Positions 1 to 46,217 of a stretch of 46,217 nt of DNA are shown here, in pieces. Numbering within the stretch: position 1 is the stretch's first letter; each line of letters opens with the position of its first letter. The notes below the pieces were generated by a model, which was given only the letters and a program-made list of their open reading frames with translations, was not told where the DNA came from and did not search any database. The DNA lies in IMG/VR virus record IMGVR_UViG_3300017963_000374, positions 1 through 46,217 of that record; one strand, written 5' to 3'. The stretch is from a virus. The translations under genes were made by a program, and so were the position numbers.

Positions 1-20
1 ACACGCCAGGCGAATCCGGT

Positions 21-383
21 ATGGTTATAAGCCAGATCATAGCCACCGTGACAATGACAGATTGCCAGTGTAATAATTACCACGTTCTCTACCCCGGCGA
101 ATTTGGCCGGGAGGATTTGAGCTACAGCACGGCACCTCAGTATACGAGCCGATTGGATTATCTGAGAGAGGCGCAAGAGGTTGGGGAGAGACACCGGGAT
201 ATTGCTTGCCGTTATTTGGACGATGAGGGAAAGCCGACGATACCCGATGAACACATGGTCATTGTCGAAATGTGGTATAATAGTAAGCAGTTGTTAGGTG
301 TACCGATTATCAGTAACCCGTTAACCGACCCGATACCGATTTATTCAAGGGCGGTTATGCGGAAAGTGAGTGGTAGAGAATGA
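21..383 (+). CDS. Hypothetical protein, possibly cut at its 5' end
   Basis: I do not recognise this 120-residue protein. The frame stays open upstream to the window edge and there is no convincing ribosome binding site before the ATG at 21, so the true start may lie outside. The N-terminal part has a hydrophobic strand followed by a Cys-x-Cys (DCQC), and the middle is rich in charged and aromatic residues (YLREAQEVGERHRD). No membrane segment or signal peptide is seen. Its TGA overlaps the ATG of the truncated ParB-like fragment at 380 by the usual ATGA type overlap, so it was probably co-transcribed with the original ParB-like gene. Real coding is likely from the overlap and normal codon use; function unknown. 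Confidence 0.6.
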   Translation: MVISQIIATVTMTDCQCNNYHVLYPGEFGREDLSYSTAPQYTSRLDYLREAQEVGERHRDIACRYLDDEGKPTIPDEHMVIVEMWYNSKQLLGVPIISNPLTDPIPIYSRAVMRKVSGRE

Positions 384-448
384 CACAGATTAAGACCGTT
401 AAAGATTTGATACCGGATAATTGTAATATAAGGTATGTTAGTGTATAA
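380..448 (+). pseudogene. Truncated N-terminus of a ParB-like gene
   Basis: A 22-codon reading frame starts MTQIKTVKDLIPDNCN and stops at TAA 446-448. It matches the beginning of the intact gene at 1283 (MTKEIKTVADLSPDSHN) in protein and partly in DNA. The frame then runs into the promoter of the homing endonuclease gene. I read it as the start of a second, tandem ParB-like gene whose body was lost, or as the old start of the downstream gene left behind when the endonuclease entered. The product, if made, would have no domain. Confidence 0.55.
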
Positions 449-449
449 T
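421..449 (+). promoter_or_regulatory. Sigma70-type promoter of the homing endonuclease
   Basis: TTGTAA at 421-426 and a perfect TATAAT at 444-449 are separated by exactly 17 bp. The start codon of the endonuclease follows at 478, with AGGTGAT as ribosome binding site. The promoter overlaps the end of the truncated ParB-like frame, so the endonuclease appears to have arrived with its own promoter. Confidence 0.7.
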
Positions 450-477
450 ATCATCAAATAAACCAGGTGATGATATT

Positions 478-1290
478 ATGAAAAAGAAGACATATATTTA
501 TGCGCTTGTTGATCCATTTACGTCTATAGTAAGGTATGTTGGAAAATCAAATAATCCAAATGCCAGATTAAGAAGGCATATAAAGGATGGTAAGGACAAT
601 ACAAAATCAGACCACAAAACAAATTGGATAGCTAAGATAATTAGACTTGGCAAGATTCCAGAATTACGTATTTTAGAAATTTGTGATTATAATAATTGGA
701 AAATAAGAGAGAGGTATTGGATAAAAAAATTACGTGATTCCGGGTGTGATTTAACAAATAGTAAGGATGGTGGAGAAGGATTAAATTTATCTCAAGAATC
801 CAGAGATAAAATGAGCAAAGCAAGAATTGGTAAGGTTCCACACAACAAGGGAAAAAAGACATCTGTTGATATAAGAAAAAAACAGAGTGAAGCCGCAAAG
901 AAAAGATGGGAGAATATGTCAGATGAAGATAGGAATAATATACTAAAAAATCTTTCAAATGACGGTTCCCGCCCTGGGTGGAATCACACAAGGGAAGCTA
1001 AGGAAAAAATAAGCAAATCATTAATTGGGAACAAGAGAACTAAGGGGTATAAGCAGACAAACGAAACAAAAATGAAAAGGGCTGAATCACTCAAGGGGCA
1101 TACTGTAACGAGAGAGACAAGAGAAAAAATAGCTAGAAAAAATAGATCATTAAGTATGGATCAGGCAAGAGAAATAAGAAACTTAATATTAAATGGTAAG
1201 CGACAAAGTGATATTGCAAAAATATATGGTGTTAGTAAAACAACCATAAACCAGATAAAATCGAATAAGAGTTACATTGAATATGACTAA
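478..1290 (+). CDS. GIY-YIG homing endonuclease with NUMOD3 repeats and C-terminal HTH
   Basis: A 270-residue free-standing homing endonuclease that would nick or cut DNA at its target site to copy itself. The GIY-YIG nuclease is at residues 6-90: IYA (7-9), YVG (20-22), catalytic Arg 30 and Glu 78 can be placed. NUMOD3-type DNA-binding motifs follow (SRDKMSKARIGKVPHNKGKK near 113-130, EKISKSLIGN near 180, TREKIARKN near 215), then a helix-turn-helix (QSDIAKIYGVSKTTINQIK, about 243-261). The gene is AT-rich and lysine-rich compared with its neighbours, which indicates transfer. Its last codons overlap the ATG of the methyltransferase gene at 1283, and a promoter lies at 421-449. Confident family call; target site unknown. 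Confidence 0.93.
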   Translation: MKKKTYIYALVDPFTSIVRYVGKSNNPNARLRRHIKDGKDNTKSDHKTNWIAKIIRLGKIPELRILEICDYNNWKIRERYWIKKLRDSGCDLTNSKDGGEGLNLSQESRDKMSKARIGKVPHNKGKKTSVDIRKKQSEAAKKRWENMSDEDRNNILKNLSNDGSRPGWNHTREAKEKISKSLIGNKRTKGYKQTNETKMKRAESLKGHTVTRETREKIARKNRSLSMDQAREIRNLILNGKRQSDIAKIYGVSKTTINQIKSNKSYIEYD

Positions 1291-2500
1291 AGAAATAAAG
1301 ACCGTGGCTGATCTTTCACCGGATAGTCACAACGCCAACGCCGGCACCCCACGCGGCCAAAAGATGATTGAGGCCAGTATCCAGGAAGATGGCTTTGGGC
1401 GGCCTGTTCTAGTTGACAAAAACGGTAAATTGATTGCCGGGAATAAAACCATTCAGAGTGTAGCTGATGCCTTTGGAATTGATACAGAGGTTATACTGGT
1501 CAAGACGGACGGCAAAAAGGTAATAGTCCACCAAAGGGAAGATTTGGACTTGGACGATTTGAAGGGGTCGGCGCGGCGGTTGGCTTATCGTGATAACTTG
1601 ACAAGTCACTTTTCTTTTGAGATGGAACCGGCGGTGGTATTGGCAGACTTTGAGGCCGGCTTTGACTTTGACGCGATAGGGTTAGAGGTTGGGGATTTGG
1701 CTGAGTTGTTGCCGGATGTTGATTTTGGGCAGAATGGTGACGGGGGGAAAGATACAGAGCCGCAGATAGACAAGGCCGAGGAGCTAAGGCAAAAGTGGGG
1801 CGTTGAGATTGGGCAGATGTGGCAATTGGGGGAGCATCGCTTGATTTGCGGTGATTGTACGGATGCGGCGGTTGTCGAGCGGGTGATGGGGGGAGAGAAG
1901 GCGGATATTGAAATACACGACCCGCCTTATGGGATGAATTTGGATACTGATTACTCCAAGATGCCAAGCGCAAAAAAAGGAGGCAATAAGGGTTATAAAC
2001 CGGTTAAAGGTGACAATGTTGATTTTGACCCAAGTCATCTATTGTCATCCTCTGCAAATGAATTATTTTTGTGGGGTGCAGATTATTATTGTGAATTGAT
2101 ACCTAATAAAAATGAGGGGACTTGGCTTATTTGGGACAAGAGGGTTGAAGATAAATTTGACGAGATGATTGGGAGTGCGTTTGAGTTAGTATGGTCAAGG
2201 GTAAGGCACAAGAGGCAAATAATTAGATATAATAATACTTTATTTTCTGGAAATTCTAAGGCAAAAAATAAATTGCATCCTACCCAAAAGCCAACAGCCG
2301 TTTATGAATGGCTATTGAATAAATATAGCAAGGAAGGCGATATAAGCGCAGATTTTTATTTAGGCGCAGGCTCTCATTTGTTAGCCTGCCACAACCTAAA
2401 CCGAAAAGCCAGAGCCATCGAAATCGACCCTGGCTATGTCGCTGTTACCCTGCAACGTTTCAAAGATCACACCGGCGTTAACCCAATTTTAATGGATTAA
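1283..2500 (+). CDS. ParB-like domain fused to a DNA methyltransferase
   Basis: The 405-residue protein starts with a ParB/Srx-like domain (about 1-110; IKTVADLSPDSHNAN, then GRPVLVDKNGKLIAGN, the usual ParB box region) and ends in an N6-adenine or N4-cytosine methyltransferase. Catalytic motif IV is DPPY at 213-216; the SAM-binding motif I comes later (DFYLGAGSH, about 357-365), so the motif order is that of the beta class. Motif I is a little diverged from the usual DPFLGSGT. I chose the ATG at 1283, which overlaps the stop of the endonuclease, over the TTG at 1277. Such proteins are frequent beside phage terminases and probably protect phage DNA or mark packaging sites; specificity cannot be read from sequence. 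Confidence 0.88.
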   Translation: MTKEIKTVADLSPDSHNANAGTPRGQKMIEASIQEDGFGRPVLVDKNGKLIAGNKTIQSVADAFGIDTEVILVKTDGKKVIVHQREDLDLDDLKGSARRLAYRDNLTSHFSFEMEPAVVLADFEAGFDFDAIGLEVGDLAELLPDVDFGQNGDGGKDTEPQIDKAEELRQKWGVEIGQMWQLGEHRLICGDCTDAAVVERVMGGEKADIEIHDPPYGMNLDTDYSKMPSAKKGGNKGYKPVKGDNVDFDPSHLLSSSANELFLWGADYYCELIPNKNEGTWLIWDKRVEDKFDEMIGSAFELVWSRVRHKRQIIRYNNTLFSGNSKAKNKLHPTQKPTAVYEWLLNKYSKEGDISADFYLGAGSHLLACHNLNRKARAIEIDPGYVAVTLQRFKDHTGVNPILMD

Positions 2501-2528
2501 CTTTAGCAGATTGCACAGTATAAAAAAA

Positions 2529-2924
2529 ATGAGTGACACAAAGTACGACAGAGAGACAATTTTAGATGCAATTCGAGGCGAGGGCCGCTGGGCACCAACC
2601 GAACCCGGCAAGATTACCAACTCCTTTGGCAATATAACTATTATTGCCCAACGTTTGCAGGTGAGTCGTAACACCGTTTATGCTTATGCCCGCAAGTGGT
2701 CAACGATTGATGAGGCCATTAAAGAGGGTCGCGAAGCATTAGGTGATTTTGTTGAGAATAAGATGGCTCAAAAGATGCTGGGCGGCGATACCACAATGAT
2801 TATCTTTTATGCCAAGACTCAGTTGAGGGGCAGGGGCTATGTGGAACGGCACGAATGGAGCGGCCCGGACGGTGGCGAAATTCCCATCCGTATAGTTGGC
2901 GGTGTGAATCTAGATGATGTATGA
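2529..2924 (+). CDS. terS: Probable terminase small subunit
   Basis: The protein has 131 residues from the ATG at 2529; an upstream TTG at 2511 is less likely. The N-terminal half carries a helix-turn-helix (TIIAQRLQVSRNTVYAYARKW), followed by a helical region and a C-terminal strand (PIRIVGGVNLDDV). This is the layout of phage small terminase subunits, which recognise the packaging site and load DNA onto the large subunit. The end overlaps the large subunit gene by 11 bp, which supports the call. The ribosome binding site is poor, so translation may depend on upstream translation. Identity rests on position and the HTH; no motif is unique to TerS. Confidence 0.7.
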   Translation: MSDTKYDRETILDAIRGEGRWAPTEPGKITNSFGNITIIAQRLQVSRNTVYAYARKWSTIDEAIKEGREALGDFVENKMAQKMLGGDTTMIIFYAKTQLRGRGYVERHEWSGPDGGEIPIRIVGGVNLDDV

Positions 2925-4212
2925 GATTCGCAACGGAAGGCCATCTGAGGCCGACTTTACATTTTACGGTGGGGCGCGTGAATTTGCCACTTATCACGGG
3001 CCGGAGGCATTATTGCACGGCCCAGCGGAAACCGGCAAGACGATAAGCGCCTTAAATAAGCTGCACATTTGCGCGTGTAAATATCCCGGAGCCAGTATTG
3101 TGATTGCCCGTAAAACACGAGCCAGCATTTACGGGTCGGTGTTGGTAACATTCAAGAATAAGGTGTTGGGGCCTAACCCGCCTTGCGAACCATACGGCGG
3201 GGAAAATGAGCCGAAATGGTTTGATTATACAAACAAGTCTAGGATTTGGATTGCCGGGTTTGATAAGTCATCAAAGGTGTTGTCAACAGAGCACGATATA
3301 ATTTACATTAACCAGCCCGATGAGTGCAGTCTTGACGACTGGGAAACAGCAACAACTAGAACAACGGGCCGGGCCGGGAATATGCCATACTCCCAAACGA
3401 TAGGCGACCCGAATCCAACCTATCCCGGCCATTGGATGTATACACGAGGAAATATAAGGATTTTCTATTCAAAACACACCGAAAACCCGATGCTATACGA
3501 CCAGTTAACCGGCAAGATTACCGAACAGGGCAAGCGTACAATTTCAACTCTTGAGGCACTCACCGGAACTAGGCGCAAGCGACTTTATGAAGGCAAACCG
3601 GCGCAAGCCGAGGGCGTGATTTATGAGGATTGGGATGAAGCAATACACCTTATCTATCAAGACAAAGTACCGCAAGGGATCAGCCGGTATATCGCCGGTC
3701 AGGACTGGGGGTACACTCATGCCGGATGTTTGGGTGTATTTGGGATAGACAACGATGGCCGGGCCTATTTGGTAGCCCAGGTTTACCACACAAAAAAAAC
3801 GGTTGACTGGTGGATAGAACGCGCCAAGGAATTGCACAAGGAGTTCAAGATCGAGGCTATAGCCTGCGGGCCAGATCAACCGGCCTATATTGAGGCATAT
3901 AAAAAAGCCGGGCTTAATGCCGTGGCCGCTGATAATTCGGTACTGCCCGGAATTAACGCCGTACAGCAGCGATTAAAACCGGATGACCAGCGCTTGTTTA
4001 TTGTACGGGACTCGTTGCGTTATCCAGATCAGGAACTTATCAGTGCCAAAAAAGCGCATAAAGTTGAGGATGAATTTGCTTCGTATGTTTGGTCCAATAG
4101 CGCGGTGAAAGAAATTCCAGTTAAGGAAATTGATGATGGTCTTGATATGACAAGGTATGCTATAATGCATGTAGATGGGGGCAAACGAAAAATGAAATTT
4201 GTTCACTTATAG
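2914..4212 (+). CDS. terL: Terminase large subunit
   Basis: A 432-residue packaging motor: an ATPase pumps DNA into the prohead and a nuclease cuts it. Walker A is GPAETGKT (36-43), very near the N-terminus; Walker B is IIYINQPDE (129-137) with Asp-Glu at 136-137. The C-terminal RNase H-like nuclease begins at GQDWGYTHAG (first acidic residue Asp 264), a second acidic region lies near ACGPDQPAYI (about 317), and the last is in DDGLDMTRYAI (about 410). The gene overlaps the small subunit by 11 bp and ends with TAG. An extended -10 sequence (TGCTATAAT, ending 4166) near the 3' end may help express the portal, but no good -35 box is present. Confidence 0.93.
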   Translation: MMYEIRNGRPSEADFTFYGGAREFATYHGPEALLHGPAETGKTISALNKLHICACKYPGASIVIARKTRASIYGSVLVTFKNKVLGPNPPCEPYGGENEPKWFDYTNKSRIWIAGFDKSSKVLSTEHDIIYINQPDECSLDDWETATTRTTGRAGNMPYSQTIGDPNPTYPGHWMYTRGNIRIFYSKHTENPMLYDQLTGKITEQGKRTISTLEALTGTRRKRLYEGKPAQAEGVIYEDWDEAIHLIYQDKVPQGISRYIAGQDWGYTHAGCLGVFGIDNDGRAYLVAQVYHTKKTVDWWIERAKELHKEFKIEAIACGPDQPAYIEAYKKAGLNAVAADNSVLPGINAVQQRLKPDDQRLFIVRDSLRYPDQELISAKKAHKVEDEFASYVWSNSAVKEIPVKEIDDGLDMTRYAIMHVDGGKRKMKFVHL

Positions 4213-12815: not shown

Positions 12816-13306
12816 AATTAAATATAGGCGCAGGCCCAAGCGGTGAAGGCGATTACAAGGTTGACATTGTACCCTATCCCGGTGTAACCGACATCGTAGA
12901 CATTGCGGTGGAGCCACTACCTTATGATGATAATTTCTTTGATGAAGTTGAGGCCAATCAGGTATTAGAACACGTCCCGAATACCATCTATTATAAAGAG
13001 GATGGTAAATTTATCAGGCGGTATTGCCGGATTGAGGCAATGCGCGAGATTCACCGGGTACTTAAGCCGGGGGGCATCCTCCGGGCCAGTGCGCCATACC
13101 AATGGCCGGAATGGGCGCAAGACCCGACTCATACCGGCGTGCCGTGGAACCGTGAAGCGTTCTCTTATTTCTGCGGAATGTGGGGCGGCAATAAACCTGG
13201 CGATTTTGCCCACGACTCTTACGGCATCAATTTTGAGTTTGAGATGATGAAGGGTGACTATGAAGGGGCACATCTGTTTGTCGAGTTAAGAAAGCCGATG
13301 AAATGA
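12812..13306 (+). CDS. Class I SAM-dependent methyltransferase
   Basis: A 164-residue protein beginning MKLNIGAGPSGEGDYKVDIVP, a clear SAM-binding motif I and acidic loop. DEVEANQVLEHVPN corresponds to motif IV and REIHRVLKPGGILRASAPY to the motif V/VI region of Methyltransf_11-type enzymes. The domain is short but complete. ATGA-type overlaps bind it into the sugar operon; the substrate is likely a sugar or peptide of the virion or of the host, but this is inference. Confidence 0.85.
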   Translation: MKLNIGAGPSGEGDYKVDIVPYPGVTDIVDIAVEPLPYDDNFFDEVEANQVLEHVPNTIYYKEDGKFIRRYCRIEAMREIHRVLKPGGILRASAPYQWPEWAQDPTHTGVPWNREAFSYFCGMWGGNKPGDFAHDSYGINFEFEMMKGDYEGAHLFVELRKPMK

Positions 13307-14001
13307 GGATAGTCGCACTGGTTAGGTCATTAAACGAGCAAGGTTGGATAGGTCGCTGCATATCTAACTACCAATGGTGTGATAAGGTTTTGCTTGCCGA
13401 TGGTGGCTCAACAGATGATACACTGAAAATAGCTAACAGATTCGGCAATGTGTCAATTCGGTATTTTGACGGGCGCCTTGAATTACCGGATGGCTCATTT
13501 ATGAATCCCGAACCCGCACACCTTAACTTTTTGTTTGATTGGGCTGATGAAGAACAAGTAGACTGGGTATTGATTGCCGACTGTGACACGTGGCCTAATT
13601 TGGCCTTACAGAGAAACGCAAGGGATTTTATCAATCGCGCCGACATAACCGGCGCGGAGGGTATCTTTACAACTTTTATCTATTTATGGGGGGAAGATAA
13701 ATATTTCCCCAAGATTAACGAGGCAGGCCCACAGCAATGGGTATGGCGGGCTGATTTAGGATTACGCTATCCGACAACGGGGAATAATAATTTTGAAGTT
13801 GTCGCGCCGGGACCGGATAAAGCTAATTCTATGATACTAGAAAAACCTTATGTCGTAATGCACTATGTATCAGACGAAAAAAGAGAACTCGAAAAAATGA
13901 AACGTTATGAAGCCTGGGGGCATCCAAAAACGCATCTACTTGAGAGTATTTACGCGCCACCGGAGCCGTTACCAGATTGGGTTAGGGAGTGTCAAGTATG
14001 A
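13303..14001 (+). CDS. Family 2 glycosyltransferase
   Basis: A 232-residue GT-A protein: VALVRSLNEQGWIGRCISN at the N-terminus, KVLLADGGSTDDTLKIAN for donor binding, WVLIADCDTWPN with the DxD (Asp-Cys-Asp) metal motif. It resembles the subgroup that handles a single sugar step and lacks membrane helices, so it acts in the cytoplasm. It overlaps both neighbours (4 bp each side or so), in the same operon. Confidence 0.85.
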   Translation: MRIVALVRSLNEQGWIGRCISNYQWCDKVLLADGGSTDDTLKIANRFGNVSIRYFDGRLELPDGSFMNPEPAHLNFLFDWADEEQVDWVLIADCDTWPNLALQRNARDFINRADITGAEGIFTTFIYLWGEDKYFPKINEAGPQQWVWRADLGLRYPTTGNNNFEVVAPGPDKANSMILEKPYVVMHYVSDEKRELEKMKRYEAWGHPKTHLLESIYAPPEPLPDWVRECQV

Positions 14002-14885
14002 AAAAGGTCGTATTATCCGGCATCTTCTATCCTATGGCAATCCTCCGCTATTTTGAGGGCGCATTAAAGCGCCGCAACGACATTGAACTATTCACCGTTG
14101 GGCCGTACACCGGCATGAATATTCCCTGGAATGGGGGAATGGATTTACTACCCAAATATGCCAAGCCGCCCGATTTACCATTGCAAATGACTCAAGCCGT
14201 CCCGATTCGGTTTATCGAGAATCAAGTACCATTTGAGCCGGATGCCTGGATACAAATTGACGCCGGTTTCCATATGACCGATAGACCACGCAATGGAAAA
14301 AATATCATTGTAGGGACTGACCCGCATTGTTTAAATTATGATTACCAGCGCAAGGTATCTGATACGTTTTATTGTATGCAAACACCCTATATGCAAGATG
14401 GTGACAACCACCTCCCGTATGCCTATGATCCGGTATGGCACGCGTCGGAAGAACAACCGCGAAATTATGATGTTGTGCTTTGTGGTTTGCATTATGACAA
14501 CCGTAACCAGTTGGTTGATGCTTTGCGCGGGCGCGGCGTGAATGTCTATTATGATCTTGGGCCGGTATTTGATGAAGCGCGGGCATTGTACAATCAAGCG
14601 CCCATTGGCTTTAACTGGTCGAGCTTGCAGGATTTAACCGCTCGCGTGTTTGAACTCACAGCAATGCGGCGGCTGGCAGTAGTTAACCGGGTGCCGGATT
14701 TGGCAATATTCTTTGAGGATGGAAAAGACCTTGTTGTCTTTGACAATCTGACTGATGCGGTGGATAAAATCACCTATTATTTAGCCAATGAAGATGAGGC
14801 TGAGAAGATAGCCGCGCAAGGCAGAAAAACGGTAATCCCGCATAGTTGGGATGCCAGAATTGACACTATTTTGGGGGCAATATGA
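13998..14885 (+). CDS. GT-B-fold glycosyltransferase (CgeB-like)
   Basis: The ATG at 13998 follows AGGGAG by 8 nt and gives 295 residues; an upstream GTG at 13989 is less likely. The protein starts KKVVLSGIFYPMAILRYFEGALKRR and contains DVVLCGLHYDNRNQLVDALRGRGVNVYYDLGP, the Rossmann half that binds a nucleotide sugar, then FELTAMRRLAVVNRVPDLAIFFEDGKDLVVF, as in CgeB/DUF3880-type glycosyltransferases. Sugar and acceptor unknown. It is packed with its neighbours by 4-bp overlaps. Confidence 0.75.
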   Translation: MKKVVLSGIFYPMAILRYFEGALKRRNDIELFTVGPYTGMNIPWNGGMDLLPKYAKPPDLPLQMTQAVPIRFIENQVPFEPDAWIQIDAGFHMTDRPRNGKNIIVGTDPHCLNYDYQRKVSDTFYCMQTPYMQDGDNHLPYAYDPVWHASEEQPRNYDVVLCGLHYDNRNQLVDALRGRGVNVYYDLGPVFDEARALYNQAPIGFNWSSLQDLTARVFELTAMRRLAVVNRVPDLAIFFEDGKDLVVFDNLTDAVDKITYYLANEDEAEKIAAQGRKTVIPHSWDARIDTILGAI

Positions 14886-15238
14886 GCTTTAATATCTTAT
14901 CCAACAAAACCGGCAAAGTCACAAAGTTTTTTGATGAGCGAACCGGGAAAACAGTAAAACGGCAAGACCAAATATTTGTACCGGAATGGGAGCAAATGGT
15001 TCCAACCGCGCCGTATGATGAGCATTTCATTTATGAAAACCCGGACAAAACCAAAGGCGCTCCCTCATTCCGTTGTACCTGCGGCTCGTTTGGTATCGTT
15101 GTGCCACCGTTTGGAAAAAATAGAATGTTTGTTTGTCATCATCACACAACCTATGGATTTCATACCACGTCAATGGTCAATAAAAAAGACGTTGAACGTG
15201 GTAATACTAAGATATTTAAGGGGCGAAAATGGGCCTAA
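14882..15238 (+). CDS. Small zinc-site protein of unknown function
   Basis: A 118-residue protein with FRCTCGSFGIVVPPFGKNRMFVCHHHTTYGFH, where C-x-C and CHHH could bind one metal ion. I do not recognise a family. Its position within the sugar operon suggests that it helps with the same pathway or is simply carried along. It overlaps the genes on either side (4 bp before, 10 bp after). Confidence 0.6.
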   Translation: MSFNILSNKTGKVTKFFDERTGKTVKRQDQIFVPEWEQMVPTAPYDEHFIYENPDKTKGAPSFRCTCGSFGIVVPPFGKNRMFVCHHHTTYGFHTTSMVNKKDVERGNTKIFKGRKWA

Positions 15239-16260
15239 AAATTGATTTATACTGCAACGATGGCTCGCCTATCGGCCTGATACCGGCTGATATTTACGGG
15301 CGCGGGGTCGGTGGGGCTGAATTGGCTATGATGTCGTGGGCTGATGAAATGGCAAAGCGTGGCCACAGCATACGAATCTATAACGACCCGAAGGCGCCGG
15401 GGGAATATGACGGCGTTGAATACATAGCTAAAGGCCACTACCGCCCACAAGATAAACGCGATGTGTTTGTCCTGTTCCGTAGCCCTAACCCTGTACTCAA
15501 TCCGACAAAAGCCGATGTTAAAATTCATTGGTCAACAGATCAATATACTGTTGGGGATTTCGGAAGGGATATATTTCCGTTTGTTGACCATATAGTTTGC
15601 ATCTCACCTTACCACGTCGATTATCACAAAGGCCGGTATGGAGCCGATGAATCTAAAATAGGCTACTTTGATTTAGGAGTACGGCTGGGGGATTATGACC
15701 AGCAAGTCGATAAGATTCCGGGGCGGTGTATCTTTTGCAGTGTGCCGGATCGCGGGCTTGACGTTCTCTATGATACGTGGCCAGCCATCAAAAGAGATGT
15801 GCCGGAAGCGTCCATTGTCATCACCGCAGACTATACTTTATGGGGCGCAGAAGGGCCGCGCAATCATAACCACCGGCTGAAATGGCTGGAGCGTGATGAT
15901 GTGATTTTTTTAGGAAATATACCACGCGAACAATTAGCACGCGAACAATTAGCCGCCGTAGTGCAATCGTATCCGTGTACCTATGAGGAATTATTTTGTA
16001 TATCATCTGCCGAGTGCCAGGTAGCCGGGGTGGTATCGGTAACGAGCGGGATGGGCGCGCTAAAGACTACAAATGAATTTGGTAGGATGCAACCGGGCAA
16101 TCCCCATGACATTAACTGGAAAAGATGGTTCATAGATTCAGTTGTTGAATCGATTGATAATCCAATGACAAAAGCGGCCATTAACAAGGCGCGAAAGCGC
16201 TTTGACTGGCAGCGGATTTGTAAACAATGGGAAGCGCTTATTAATACGGGGGCGTGGTAA
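15229..16260 (+). CDS. GT4-type glycosyltransferase
   Basis: The 343-residue protein has two Rossmann halves: GRGVGGAELAMMSWADEMAKRGH at the N-terminus (the GGAE donor-domain loop of GT4), and CIFCSVPDRGLDVLYDTWPAIK to SYPCTYEELFCISSAECQVAGVVSV, which matches the E-x7-E motif (EELFCISSAE) of retaining GT4 enzymes. A 15-bp tandem duplication inside the gene doubles the pentapeptide REQLA. No membrane segment. Probably elongates a glycan begun by the neighbours. Confidence 0.85.
   Translation: MGLKIDLYCNDGSPIGLIPADIYGRGVGGAELAMMSWADEMAKRGHSIRIYNDPKAPGEYDGVEYIAKGHYRPQDKRDVFVLFRSPNPVLNPTKADVKIHWSTDQYTVGDFGRDIFPFVDHIVCISPYHVDYHKGRYGADESKIGYFDLGVRLGDYDQQVDKIPGRCIFCSVPDRGLDVLYDTWPAIKRDVPEASIVITADYTLWGAEGPRNHNHRLKWLERDDVIFLGNIPREQLAREQLAAVVQSYPCTYEELFCISSAECQVAGVVSVTSGMGALKTTNEFGRMQPGNPHDINWKRWFIDSVVESIDNPMTKAAINKARKRFDWQRICKQWEALINTGAW
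15924..15953 (+). repeat. Perfect 15-bp tandem duplication
   Basis: ACGCGAACAATTAGC occurs twice head-to-tail at 15924-15938 and 15939-15953. It keeps the reading frame and adds five residues (REQLA) near the acceptor side of the glycosyltransferase. It looks like a recent slippage event. Confidence 0.85.
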
Positions 16261-39155: not shown

Positions 39156-39383
39156 ATGATAAATTTAATCCCGAAGATTATAAATGATCGCGGATTTACT
39201 TTGGCCGATTTTCAGCGCAAAATGAACGATAACGGGAACGGCATTAGTTACCAGTCATTGCATAAAATAGCCAATCAGTCGCAAACAATTTTGCCGGGAT
39301 CAACCAGGATTGAAACCCTGCAAAAAATTGCCGATACGCTTGGCTTGCAAGTTGCCGACCTCTACCAAAAGGATAGTGAATAA
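39156..39383 (+). CDS. XRE-family regulator
   Basis: A 75-residue Cro/C1-type protein with ribosome binding site TTTGGAGG. The helix-turn-helix covers GFTLADFQRKMNDNGNGISYQSLHKIANQ and TRIETLQKIADTLGLQVADLYQK. It is the first gene of the rightward operon and sits beside the divergent promoters, as a phage repressor or Cro-like protein does. Confidence 0.9.
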   Translation: MINLIPKIINDRGFTLADFQRKMNDNGNGISYQSLHKIANQSQTILPGSTRIETLQKIADTLGLQVADLYQKDSE

Positions 39384-39868
39384 TGCCGATTTATTTTATC
39401 CAAGCCGCAGACAAGACCGGGCTAATAAAAATCGGATGGGCGGTTGATGTCAACAAGAGATTAAAAGACATTCAGCGCATGTGTCCTATCCGACTCATTG
39501 TTTTGGATACCCACAAGGGCGACGCCCGCACAGAATATATCATTCACCGCATATTTCAAGAATACAGACTACACGGCGAATGGTTTGAGCCAGAACAAAA
39601 ATTGCTTAATTTTATTCAGGATGAAGAATCGAGAAACAAAATAATTAATAATAAAAAAGGTATCAACAAAAAAATTAGGCAGCTAAGATATAATAGCGGA
39701 CTAACAAAAGCCTCTTTTTGTAAAAAAATAGGGGTTAGTGTAGGTGCTATTGATAGGTGGGAATCTGGTGTCAATCTCCCATCTGATAATAGCATTCAGA
39801 AAATCGAGGCTGCATTTAACATTAAACTCGACTCTCTTTTTGTTGTTGAGGCGCAAGAGTCCGCATAA
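39383..39868 (+). CDS. T5orf172-type GIY-YIG domain fused to XRE HTH
   Basis: The 161-residue protein joins an N-terminal GIY-YIG domain of the T5orf172/Mug113 type (IYFIQA at 3-8, IKIGWA at 15-20, Arg 26, His 55, HGEWF 64-68 with catalytic-type Glu 66) to a C-terminal XRE HTH (IRQLRYNSGLTKASFCKKIGVSVGAIDRWESGVNLPSDNSIQKIEAAFNI). A DNA nuclease or nickase guided by its own DNA-binding domain is plausible. The gene overlaps the regulator and endonuclease genes by one base each. Confidence 0.8.
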   Translation: MPIYFIQAADKTGLIKIGWAVDVNKRLKDIQRMCPIRLIVLDTHKGDARTEYIIHRIFQEYRLHGEWFEPEQKLLNFIQDEESRNKIINNKKGINKKIRQLRYNSGLTKASFCKKIGVSVGAIDRWESGVNLPSDNSIQKIEAAFNIKLDSLFVVEAQESA

Positions 39869-40799: not shown

Positions 40800-40985
40800 G
40801 TGAATAAGCCAGAAATGATAAGAGTCCAGCACTTGGACAAGGTGACAACATTTTACGGTAAAAAAACCTTGTCCATTGACTATATGAGCCACCGTTATCT
40901 ATATGATCCACAGCGCAACGTGATTTACTGGACGCAATTGCAACCGGCCATTGTCGGGTGGGGATTTACGCTTAAGGAAAATTGA
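40800..40985 (+). CDS. Small hypothetical protein
   Basis: A 61-residue protein with GTG start and GGAG 11 nt upstream (MNKPEMIRVQHLDKVTTFYG). It is beta-rich. Followed at once by a promoter and a long structured RNA. An 86-bp gap before it holds only short frames. Confidence 0.55.
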   Translation: MNKPEMIRVQHLDKVTTFYGKKTLSIDYMSHRYLYDPQRNVIYWTQLQPAIVGWGFTLKEN

Positions 40986-40988
40986 CCC

Positions 40989-41017
40989 TTGCAATTTTTA
41001 GCAAGGTGTGTTATGAT
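40989..41017 (+). promoter_or_regulatory. Sigma70-type promoter of the structured RNA
   Basis: TTGCAA (40989-40994), 17 bp, TATGAT (41012-41017) with TG two bases before the -10 box. Transcription would start near 41024. Confidence 0.6.
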
Positions 41018-41023
41018 TGATTT

Positions 41024-41196
41024 TGTAAGGCGGTGCCGGAATTGACCACCCGGCGGTGAAAAAGAATAAGACTCAACGGGACACGAAACCTTTAATGGTT
41101 TTAAGCTGGTGATTTACGCGGTACTGCCCCCGTCAAGGGCAAAACCCCGTTGAGTCACCCGTAAGTCATCAGCTTAAAGTTATTGAGGGTTTTTTG
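41024..41196 (+). ncRNA. Long structured RNA with a large pseudoknot
   Basis: About 170 nt without a reading frame. 41086-41118 pairs with 41160-41192 in a continuous stem of about 33 bp, several of them G-U, that runs into the T-tract. The 41-nt loop contains a TGCCC/GGGCA hairpin (41125-41141) and segment 41146-41156, which is a perfect 11-bp complement of GACTCAACGGG at 41070-41080, upstream of the stem: an H-type pseudoknot. A 5' hairpin GCCGG/CCGGC (41035-41054) precedes. It does not match a family I know. Confidence 0.65.
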
Positions 41197-41233
41197 TTTC
41201 TCCAAAAGTTAGAAAAGTTAAAGGAGTCCACTT

Positions 41234-41398
41234 GTGACACTATTTTTTATCGGTTTTGTTATCGGTTTTTTCGTCGGATTTATCGCCCACGCCGGCCTAT
41301 TGGTTTGGCGCGACATCCAGCGCAGCCGGGTTGATCGGATTCGGGTAGCGGCGGGTGAACGCAGGGTAAGCGAAATCAAGGTGAGGCGGGAGAGATGA
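41234..41398 (+). CDS. Small membrane protein
   Basis: A 54-residue protein with GTG start and AAGGAGT 7 nt upstream: MTLFFIGFVIGFFVGFIAHAGLL is a membrane segment with glycine zipper, then an arginine-rich cytoplasmic tail. It overlaps the next gene by 4 bp. May act at the host membrane. Confidence 0.6.
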   Translation: MTLFFIGFVIGFFVGFIAHAGLLVWRDIQRSRVDRIRVAAGERRVSEIKVRRER

Positions 41399-41679: not shown

Positions 41680-42480
41680 ATGGCAACAATAATTGATATA
41701 CTCGGAAACAGTACACCCGTATCTGAAACACTAGCTCAAAAATGGGGATATGTAAAGGCGGCAATAGCCTGCAAGGTGTTTTTCTATCAACAATTAAAAA
41801 ATGGGGTATGCTCCGCCAGGGTGTCCACCATAGCTAAAAAACTTGGAATGTCTGCCGGAACCGTAAGCGGGAATCTGAGATGGTTAAGAGAAAACGGGTA
41901 TATCGAAGTTATCGGAGAACATAAAAGCGGCAATGTAACGAACAAATATCGGGTTACAAAGTTATTTTTTGATGCCTTAGAACATTCAGCAGATGAATGT
42001 TATCATTCAGCAGATGAAAGTAACATTCAGCAGATGAATGGAGAAGAAGAAGTAAAAGAATATATAGAATATCCTCTCTATAAAGGCAAGTCACCCCAAA
42101 AACCAAAACAGCAAAAAACACAAAAACCAACCCCGGCAGACATCGAATACTATAACCCGTTAGCACAAGAGTTATTATCTATTTGTGAATTATCCATACC
42201 ACTTGTTAACGGGACAAAGTTAGACTTTATGGGAGTTATTAAGTTTCTGCAAGCCAATCACGCCAACCCAGATATGGTACGCGACTTTGGCCGGTGGTAT
42301 GATGACACGCCCTCGCTGAAAGTTGTTACAGATCAATGGGGGCTTTTTGTTAAAGGGAAACAACCCCGCAAATTTAAGCAAAACGGAAACGGAGCGCACA
42401 AAAATCGCACCGGTTCAAAGCCAGCCCGCAAGCCACGCAATCATATTAAAGTACCAGATGATCAAAAAATGCCATTTTAA
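41680..42480 (+). CDS. Replication initiator with winged-helix domain
   Basis: The 266-residue protein has an N-terminal winged helix (CSARVSTIAKKLGMSAGTVSGNLRWLRENGYIEVIGEHKSGNVTNKYRV, about 48-96), a low-complexity acidic and lysine-rich middle, a C-terminal helical domain (AQELLSICELSIPLVNGTKLDFMGVIKFLQANH) and a basic tail ending MPF, similar to the C-terminal tip of SSB-binding proteins. Three iterons lie within the gene (41983-42040), as in lambda O. Next comes the DnaC-like loader, so it likely opens the origin and recruits it. Confidence 0.75.
   Translation: MATIIDILGNSTPVSETLAQKWGYVKAAIACKVFFYQQLKNGVCSARVSTIAKKLGMSAGTVSGNLRWLRENGYIEVIGEHKSGNVTNKYRVTKLFFDALEHSADECYHSADESNIQQMNGEEEVKEYIEYPLYKGKSPQKPKQQKTQKPTPADIEYYNPLAQELLSICELSIPLVNGTKLDFMGVIKFLQANHANPDMVRDFGRWYDDTPSLKVVTDQWGLFVKGKQPRKFKQNGNGAHKNRTGSKPARKPRNHIKVPDDQKMPF
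41983..42040 (+). repeat. Three iterons within the initiator gene, candidate origin
   Basis: CATTCAGCAGATGAATG occurs at 41983-41999, 42004-42020 (last three bases AAG) and 42024-42040, spaced 21 and 20 bp, about two helical turns. Each copy is a partial palindrome (CATTCA, five bases, TGAATG). AT-rich sequence follows (42047-42090), suited to strand opening. Confidence 0.75.
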
Positions 42481-42496: not shown

Positions 42497-43219
42497 ATGG
42501 AATTTCCAGAATTACGTGAAAAAGAATTGTCTCGATATAGAAACGAAGTGTGGGGCCAGCCACTTTATAATTGTTCCAATTGCGCTGATTTGCAAGTAGT
42601 GAAAAATCAGACCGGCCCGGAAACGTTTGAGATCATCCATTGCCCGGTATGCACCGGTGGAACTCGTCAAACTTGGCTAAATAAGCACAGCGGATTATCG
42701 CAAGGCGAATTACAACGGGCGATGGTAGATTATAAAATCCTCACACCCCAGCACAAAAACGCAAAAATGATGATTGACAAGGCGCTAAAAACTCGCGCCG
42801 GCCTGTATTCATTTTGGGGCGATTTCGGAAGCGGCAAAAGTGCAGCATTGACTACGGTCACGGCTGAGGTTATCCGGGCCGGGGTTGAGGCATACTACGC
42901 GCCGATGGCCAGTATATTGGACCACATCCGGTCAATGTATGCCTTACACCAGGATAGCACGGCTTTTTGGGATCGTTTGCTGACTATACCATGCCTGGCA
43001 TTGGATGAGGTAAATCGATTCAATGATACCTCATGGGCTAAAGAGAAATTGTTCATTTTGGCAGATCAGCGGTATAGGCTACGGGCGACTCATATTACTG
43101 TTTTTGCAACCAATGAAAACCCGACTACCGACTGGTCAGCGGATGAGGCCATAGGCTATTTGTTTTCCAGAATGAATGATGGCGACATTGTTCATTTGGA
43201 AGGGGATTTGAGAGGTTAA
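42497..43219 (+). CDS. DnaC-like helicase loader
   Basis: A 240-residue AAA+ ATPase that would load the host DnaB helicase on the phage origin. A zinc knuckle (C26-C29, C49-C52) comes first, then Walker A GDFGSGKS (108-115), Walker B LALDE (167-171), sensor 1 VFATNEN (202-208) and an arginine-containing LFSRMNDG (about 226-233). Length and order match phage DnaC homologues. Ribosome binding site AAGGAG is 8 nt before the ATG. Next to the initiator gene. Confidence 0.88.
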   Translation: MEFPELREKELSRYRNEVWGQPLYNCSNCADLQVVKNQTGPETFEIIHCPVCTGGTRQTWLNKHSGLSQGELQRAMVDYKILTPQHKNAKMMIDKALKTRAGLYSFWGDFGSGKSAALTTVTAEVIRAGVEAYYAPMASILDHIRSMYALHQDSTAFWDRLLTIPCLALDEVNRFNDTSWAKEKLFILADQRYRLRATHITVFATNENPTTDWSADEAIGYLFSRMNDGDIVHLEGDLRG

Positions 43220-43942: not shown

Positions 43943-44215
43943 ATGGAATTTCTTGAAGGTATCATGATTGGTGGTATCGCGCTCGCGCCGTTGGTTGTTG
44001 GTTTGGTTGCGTTAGCCAAAAAGCTGGGGTTGCCCGAACAATACGCGCCGTGGGCAAACGGGACTCTTGCTGTTGTTGCTGTGATTGGCGCCCAGTTTAT
44101 GGAATTGTACCCGGCCTACACCCAATATTTTGTTATGGCGGCCACCGCCGTTATGACGTTTTTGTCGGCCTCCGGTGTTTACCAGTTCGGCAAAACCACA
44201 ATGAGTAAAAAATAA
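43943..44215 (+). CDS. Holin-like membrane protein
   Basis: A 90-residue protein with two or three membrane segments (GGIALAPLVVGLVALAKKL; NGTLAVVAVIGAQFMEL; YFVMAATAVMTFLSASGVYQF) and a short basic C-terminus (KTTMSKK). Small size, its own promoter and location suit a holin that opens the membrane at lysis. TTGGAGG ribosome binding site. No endolysin is next to it in this window, so the assignment stays tentative. Confidence 0.6.
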   Translation: MEFLEGIMIGGIALAPLVVGLVALAKKLGLPEQYAPWANGTLAVVAVIGAQFMELYPAYTQYFVMAATAVMTFLSASGVYQFGKTTMSKK

Positions 44216-44221
44216 CCACCT

Positions 44222-44274
44222 AACCGGCCCGCGTGTTTTCCCTCCTTTCCACGCGGGCCGGTTGGTATTTTTTG
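44222..44274 (+). terminator. Strong intrinsic terminator
   Basis: A 14-bp perfect stem (44222-44235 with 44250-44263) and T-tract (44269-44274) follow the holin-like gene. Confidence 0.85.
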
Positions 44275-45632: not shown

Positions 45633-45938
45633 ATGATTTTTGAAACTCTTCACGAAAGCGCCCAGCGCGGTGAACTGCTGTTAATTGACGGTGGCTTTTG
45701 CCATTGGCATCTGCGCCGCGATGGTCAATTGACCATCCGTGAGATTATCAGCACTCGCCCCGGCGCAGGCTCGGCAATGCTGGCCGAACTCAAACGGCAG
45801 CCGGCACAATCAATTTTTGCCAAATGCCCGGTTGATTTGCCAGCGAATGACTGGTACAGGCGGCGAGGTTTTGAGTTGGAGCGCACCGAAACGACGCGCA
45901 CCGGGCGGGAGTTGAACTTGTGGCGACTCCGGCTTTGA
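45633..45938 (+). CDS. GNAT-like acetyltransferase, short
   Basis: A 101-residue protein with a short GNAT core: ISTRPGAGSAMLAELKRQ is motif A for acetyl-CoA binding (RPGAGSAM; normally R/QxxGxG/A) and PANDWYRRRGFELERTET is motif B. The N-terminal strands are reduced, so it is a minimal member. It may modify a host or phage protein. No clear ribosome binding site. It overlaps the next gene by 19 bp. Confidence 0.65.
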   Translation: MIFETLHESAQRGELLLIDGGFCHWHLRRDGQLTIREIISTRPGAGSAMLAELKRQPAQSIFAKCPVDLPANDWYRRRGFELERTETTRTGRELNLWRLRL

Positions 45939-46217
45939 TTTACTGCGCCGATGGCAACGCCCGGTTTGCAGAAATCGCCGTCAATGCTGGCTTTTTGTAC
46001 GGCGCTCAATTGCCTCCGCGTGGATTGCCATTCCTGCCGTATTTTGCGGATCAGAATTGGAAAAATCCGAACCGTGAGCGGTATATGGCAGAACTGGCTA
46101 AATATCAGCCACATATTGCCAGCGTGTTGGATTGGGAGTGTCAGGAGCAATTGCCGGAGGTACTGGCCTGGGCAGAGGATGCCGCGCAGTTTGTTGAGGT
46201 TGTGATGATAATCCCAA
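45920..46217 (+). CDS. Conserved phage protein, cut by the window end
   Basis: A GTG at 45920 opens a frame that continues to the end: ALIYCADGNARFAEIAVNAGFLYGAQLPP ... FADQNWKNPNRERYMAELAKYQ ... LDWECQEQLPEVLAWAEDAAQFVEVVMIIP. I recall similar proteins in other phages (DUF6610-like), perhaps related to TIM-barrel base-exchange enzymes; this is uncertain. 99 codons are visible. Confidence 0.6.
   Translation, partial: MATPALIYCADGNARFAEIAVNAGFLYGAQLPPRGLPFLPYFADQNWKNPNRERYMAELAKYQPHIASVLDWECQEQLPEVLAWAEDAAQFVEVVMIIP

Follow-up and report, generated by a model that had tools for sequence, protein, structure and literature searches.

Does the RNA made from the gene-free stretch in front of the replication genes of this phage act on its own, or does it decide in cis whether those genes are transcribed? 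The window, that is, the whole stretch of DNA analysed, is a single linear phage record, 46,217 bases long. Within it, positions 41024-41199 are flanked by a small gene ending at 40985 and a 54-aa gene starting at 41234, and the genes upstream of the stretch point the same way as those downstream. The original prediction placed here a promoter followed by about 170 nt without a gene, encoding a large pseudoknotted RNA with a terminator that might be a regulatory RNA, an attenuator or an RNA decoy. The gene-free part was borne out: no convincing gene or tRNA was found inside 41024-41199, and neither ARAGORN nor Rfam detected a tRNA or tmRNA. Our best reading of the leader is a cis-acting attenuator rather than a free-standing ncRNA. 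The features on which the argument turns are as follows.

40987-41006, + strand: dyad CCTTGC-N8-GCAAGG, overlapping the -35 region; sole perfect copy in the window
40989-41017, + strand: sigma-70-like promoter, TTGCAA-17-TATGAT with extended -10 TGn; consensus match only
41030-41058, + strand: 5′ hairpin of the leader; -12.2 kcal/mol, z -0.8, not significant
41070-41156, + strand: cloverleaf, an alternative fold and candidate antiterminator, closed by an 11-bp helix; z -4.0
41085-41193, + strand: long hairpin of 34 pairs, the intrinsic terminator stem, with arms 41085-41118 and 41160-41193; z -7.6
41188-41199, + strand: terminator U-tract, read from the sequence

The stem of about 33 bp that had been proposed on the terminator side holds throughout. 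Segments 41086-41118 and 41160-41192 pair at 33 of 33 positions (26 Watson-Crick and seven G-U pairs, with 0 A-C), and addition of 41085/41193 extends the stem to 34 uninterrupted pairs, far beyond chance. Relative to shuffles, the fold z was -5.5 for 41024-41200 and -7.6 for 41085-41195. The U-tract, GGGTTTTTTG, sits directly 3′ of the stem. Across 1.6 Mb of phage and bacterial DNA, only three stems of at least 18 uninterrupted pairs with a loop of 15-90 and a U-tract were found; that of the leader is the longest, the other two having 18-19 pairs, and it alone has a complement of >5 nt between loop and 5′ flank. The other terminator-like hairpin examined, at 44222-44263 directly after a holin-like gene (43943-44215), has a conventional perfect 14-bp stem.

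Wherever the long stem departs from perfect symmetry, at seven positions in all, the + strand has G-U and never A-C, and it therefore seems to be the + strand RNA rather than the DNA that is kept; the two-sided chance of 1/64 is support for this, not proof. Minus-strand RNA was rejected as a candidate, having a weaker fold (z -2.7) and seven A-C mismatches in the long stem. We also discarded 6S RNA, which needs a long hairpin with a large central bubble, as the leader stem is uninterrupted over 34 pairs. A 13-nt near-repeat (12/13) that links 40959-40971 in the preceding gene to 41107-41119 in the 5′ arm of the terminator may be due to chance.

The loop of this hairpin was also said to carry an 11-nt segment perfectly complementary to one upstream, and the two exact complements were located precisely, at 41070-41080 and 41146-41156. 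The accompanying statement that such a match is not expected by chance was too strong for the window as a whole, where ∼1.4 11-nt pairs at a spacing of 40-120 are expected and 2 were observed, but for this loop against this 62-nt 5′ flank such a complement arose in shuffles with a frequency of 4.5e-4. The cloverleaf that the 11-bp helix closes is 87 nt long and has a folding energy of -35.6 kcal/mol.

Growing transcripts were folded with a nearest-neighbour model, which ignores the polymerase footprint and tertiary contacts. In these prefix folds the 11-bp helix was absent up to 41150; its probability was 0.999 when the transcript ended at 41156, 0.97 at 41172, 0.27 at 41176 and ∼0 at 41188. 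Cloverleaf and terminator were even at 41174, with the terminator ahead from ∼41176, and the full-length nested folds had energies of -68.8 kcal/mol for the terminator and -55.8 kcal/mol for the cloverleaf. At equilibrium the full transcript is thus predicted to be in the terminator form, and the leader may simply terminate unless a signal intervenes.

This competition bears on the H-type pseudoknot at the centre of the original prediction. Pairing of a hairpin loop with an outside segment is provided by the exact 11-nt complement, and a simple energy sum favours it: once 7-18 kcal/mol is charged as a penalty for the pseudoknot, the two helices together would have -82 to -71 kcal/mol, below the terminator alone, linker strain being ignored. 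When the helices were placed as rigid bodies, 31+11 pairs fitted easily, and 33+11 pairs fitted only with the 5-nt and 3-nt linkers stretched to ∼5.9 Å per nt. The idea that the terminator sterically excludes the pseudoknot was weakened by this test, as stretched linkers or slight fraying would allow the two to coexist. A helix of ∼34 pairs makes ∼3 turns, and its formation with the 11-bp helix already closed would presumably require threading. A pseudoknot as the defining fold is possible, perhaps as the end state of the leader RNA, but 33+11 pairs strain the linkers, and the nested cloverleaf, closed by the same 11-bp helix, is predicted to form first. In these models a two-state description, cloverleaf and terminator, appears at least as good, and the folding path with its competition against the terminator is more informative than the pseudoknot as a description of the leader.

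The promoter of the original prediction is present as a consensus-like site, with 9 of 12 consensus positions matched, but the region has no more such matches than background (11 against 10.2 in shuffles); these counts refer to a sigma-70-like consensus, and promoters of the host may look different. The dyad over the -35 region is a possible operator, a candidate site for a repressor, and is perhaps bound by the T5orf172/HTH_3 protein encoded at 39383-39868.

Behind the terminator lies a rightward operon, whose first gene starts only ∼30 bases after the U-tract.

41234-41398, + strand: small membrane-like protein, 54 aa, the first gene past the terminator, with a good ribosome-binding site
41680-42480, + strand: O-like replication initiator gene, carrying three 19-nt iterons at 41981-42040
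42497-43219, + strand: DnaC-like helicase loader

The 54-aa protein had no family match. The three iteron copies, of sequence AACATTCAGCAGATGAATG, lie inside the O-like gene and probably mark a lambda-like origin; the genes of the operon are presumably early. A search of the + strand from the terminator to the initiator gene revealed no promoter-like site, and expression behind the terminator should therefore need read-through.

We believe, with a probability of about 0.5, that the leader is a cis-acting attenuator, a conditional intrinsic terminator, of the replication operon, a reading made from one sequence. It is favoured because the long stem and the 11-bp helix are real, the cloverleaf has a fold signal of its own, the folds form in a definite order, and replication genes with iterons lie downstream; both helices, their significance, their order of formation and their position come directly from the computations. 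An intrinsic terminator is present between the first gene and a promoter recognized by consensus, and an earlier-forming fold sequesters one of the terminator arms according to the energy model. Of the options originally offered, a structured RNA with a terminator that acts as an attenuator draws support from the folding statistics, the wobble asymmetry and the position, while no evidence emerged for an RNA decoy or a stand-alone ncRNA.

We envisage that RNA polymerase would start near 41024 and make the leader. As 41156 emerges, the 11-bp helix would close the 87-nt cloverleaf, in which the 5′ arm of the terminator would be held in side hairpins. With onward transcription, the 3′ arm would displace the side hairpins and build the 34-pair terminator, and the 11-bp helix would then either be given up or be kept as a pseudoknot, which would have to thread and strain the last pairs at the terminator foot. 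A phage or host protein, a small molecule, pausing or the polymerase itself might hold the cloverleaf long enough for transcription to continue through the membrane gene, the O-like initiator gene that contains the iterons and the gene for the loader; failing that, transcription would stop at ∼41197-41200. The leader would then be in use as a switch set by some signal, with the operon dependent on read-through. No ligand, leader peptide or antiterminator protein for the leader was identified, and leader-peptide attenuation was rejected, as the sole short frame over the 5′ strand (GTG near 41055, 18 codons, found by eye) is without a ribosome-binding site.

The same compact structured RNA, framed by a promoter-like site and a strong terminator, might instead be a small RNA in its own right, ∼175 nt long with its 3′ end at the terminator. 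It would then work in trans, as an antisense RNA, as a sponge or by dimerizing through its two 11-nt segments, which could also pair from one molecule to another, and the downstream genes would be expressed otherwise. We consider this unlikely: the window holds no notable target, the longest other matches (15 nt same-sense, 11 nt antisense) all being scattered, there is no other copy of the 11-mer with <2 mismatches, and no promoter-like site was found behind the terminator. Action in trans could also take the form of immunity resembling that of P4 CI or C4, in which the loop of a processed hairpin would pair with the upstream (seqA-like) segment of new transcripts and force termination before the replication genes are reached, thereby conferring superinfection immunity. 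The place, a replication-gene leader, and the logic, a loop complementary to an upstream segment, are those of P4 (PMC4825925). Nevertheless the complement fits equally well in cis, no second, seqC-like complement was found downstream of the leader RNA with up to 2 mismatches, Rfam returned no match to such families, and the proteins scanned included no integrase, leaving a temperate life-style unsupported; an immunity RNA of this kind is therefore, in our view, very doubtful.

Coincidence of the 11-nt complement is assumed if the hairpin is an ordinary, though unusually long, intrinsic terminator that insulates operons, and the window-wide count of such pairs (1.4 expected, 2 seen) agrees with this. 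An insulator would also be sensible between genes that point in the same direction. The conditional chance of the complement, 4.5e-4, and the cloverleaf z of -4.0 nevertheless make it distinctly unlikely, and the hairpin at 44222-44263, the other terminator-like one examined, manages with its conventional 14 bp. An element acting at the level of DNA, such as an origin, a recombination site or a binding site with palindromic arms, would suitably adjoin the replication genes, but is extremely improbable when every wobble pair is of a type tolerated in + strand RNA alone, a U-tract is present and the origin iterons lie elsewhere.

The cis-acting attenuator remains the reading we prefer, and we asked whether relatives of the leader occur elsewhere. 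In keeping with the original statement that the RNA matches no known family, Rfam 15 yielded none at gathering or relaxed thresholds, the best sub-threshold match reaching 21.9 bits (E 0.09) where the threshold was 53.1; weak matches to plastid psbJ and the Phe leader were discounted as reflecting the palindromes. No DNA relatives of the leader were found in its own record, the phage records, the IMG/VR patterns or nine related or neighbouring phage records. The cloverleaf was also made into a covariance model, which is insensitive because it was built from one sequence. Its sole match in 1.2 Mb of loci was the window itself, and it had no match among 32 phage records, 5 bacterial genomes and 199 genomes from the phylum of the Singulisphaera hit. 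The O-like protein, the membrane gene and the loader likewise had no relative in IMG/VR. The searched sets may lack records very close to that of the window, so the absence of relatives is not proven. As no homologue was found, covariation of either helix has no comparative basis.

The closest functional parallels are P4 CI/seqA, IsrK of Gifsy-1, HK022 put and the pseudoknotted riboswitches, and membership in any of these would be by analogy only. The lambda pR′-tR′ leader (lambda 6S RNA) is a phage leader that ends at a terminator which must be passed for operon expression; there, loading of Q depends on DNA and a sigma-dependent pause rather than on an RNA fold. The leader described here has a similar length and a terminator to be passed before the operon, but would rely on an RNA fold, and no Q-like protein was found among those scanned. 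The C4 RNAs of P1 and P7 are the same kind of leader as P4 CI, with termination set by pairing between the loop and an upstream segment. P4 CI RNA brings about premature termination before the replication genes through pairing with seqA upstream and seqC downstream (PMC4825925), and resembles our leader in its place before replication genes and in the control of termination by loop-upstream pairing (PMC4825925). In contrast to P4 CI and C4, the leader here has its 11-nt pair in cis around a 34-pair terminator stem.

IsrK of the prophage Gifsy-1 is transcribed from a single promoter both as a short RNA, which stops at an intrinsic terminator, and as a read-through mRNA that opens with a small ORF (PMC4825925). 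This layout, a terminated short form and a small-ORF-first read-through form, would be shared, but replication genes lie behind the leader here and an antirepressor behind IsrK, and Rfam gave no match. HK022 put, ∼70 nt with two stem-loops bound to RNA polymerase, acts on terminators kilobases away (PMC9378689); its stem-loops bind the zinc-binding domain of the polymerase. Like our leader, put is a structured phage leader RNA that follows closely on an early promoter and influences termination further downstream, whereas our predicted cloverleaf overlaps its own terminator and differs in fold from the two stem-loops of put. A precedent for competition between a pseudoknotted domain and an intrinsic terminator is the fluoride riboswitch (PMC11077080). 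Fluoride and ZTP riboswitches resemble the leader in having a 5′ domain closed by long-range pairing and then a competing terminator; the leader, unlike them, is without a known aptamer, as judged by Rfam, and has a 34-pair terminator stem.

Should the switch prove real, phage replication would start under the control of an RNA that chooses between two folds during its synthesis. The phage has no studied close relative, and the switch is a prediction from a single sequence; the two helices yield exact, testable predictions in the form of single and compensatory mutations. A long shot is that the leader represents a new class of phage antitermination, in which a cloverleaf closed by an 11-bp long-range helix would turn into a pseudoknot that is topologically hindered and involves the leader's own terminator of 34 pairs. 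Both expression of the replication operon and transcription across the iterons would then be gated by folding kinetics, possibly with a dedicated ligand.

The nearest phages by terminase share 65% and 48% identity, and their early regions are different bar one protein. A 101-aa protein of unknown kind (45633-46217 in the window; L124:10020-10605) is 81% identical, with DNA ∼70% identical, in a 59-kb phage record (L124) that is otherwise related via its terminase (48%). A second metagenome contig (L002) shares 99.8% identity with window positions 1-3514 and continues for another 1170 bases to their left. The end of the window is absent from these extra 1170 bases and the window ends do not join, so the window is not a closed genome. 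At the left end, by the terminase genes, the gene for a GIY-YIG/NUMOD3 protein overlaps that for a DNA N4/N6 methylase (478-2500), and glycosyltransferase-like genes lie inside the structural gene block at 13303-16260.
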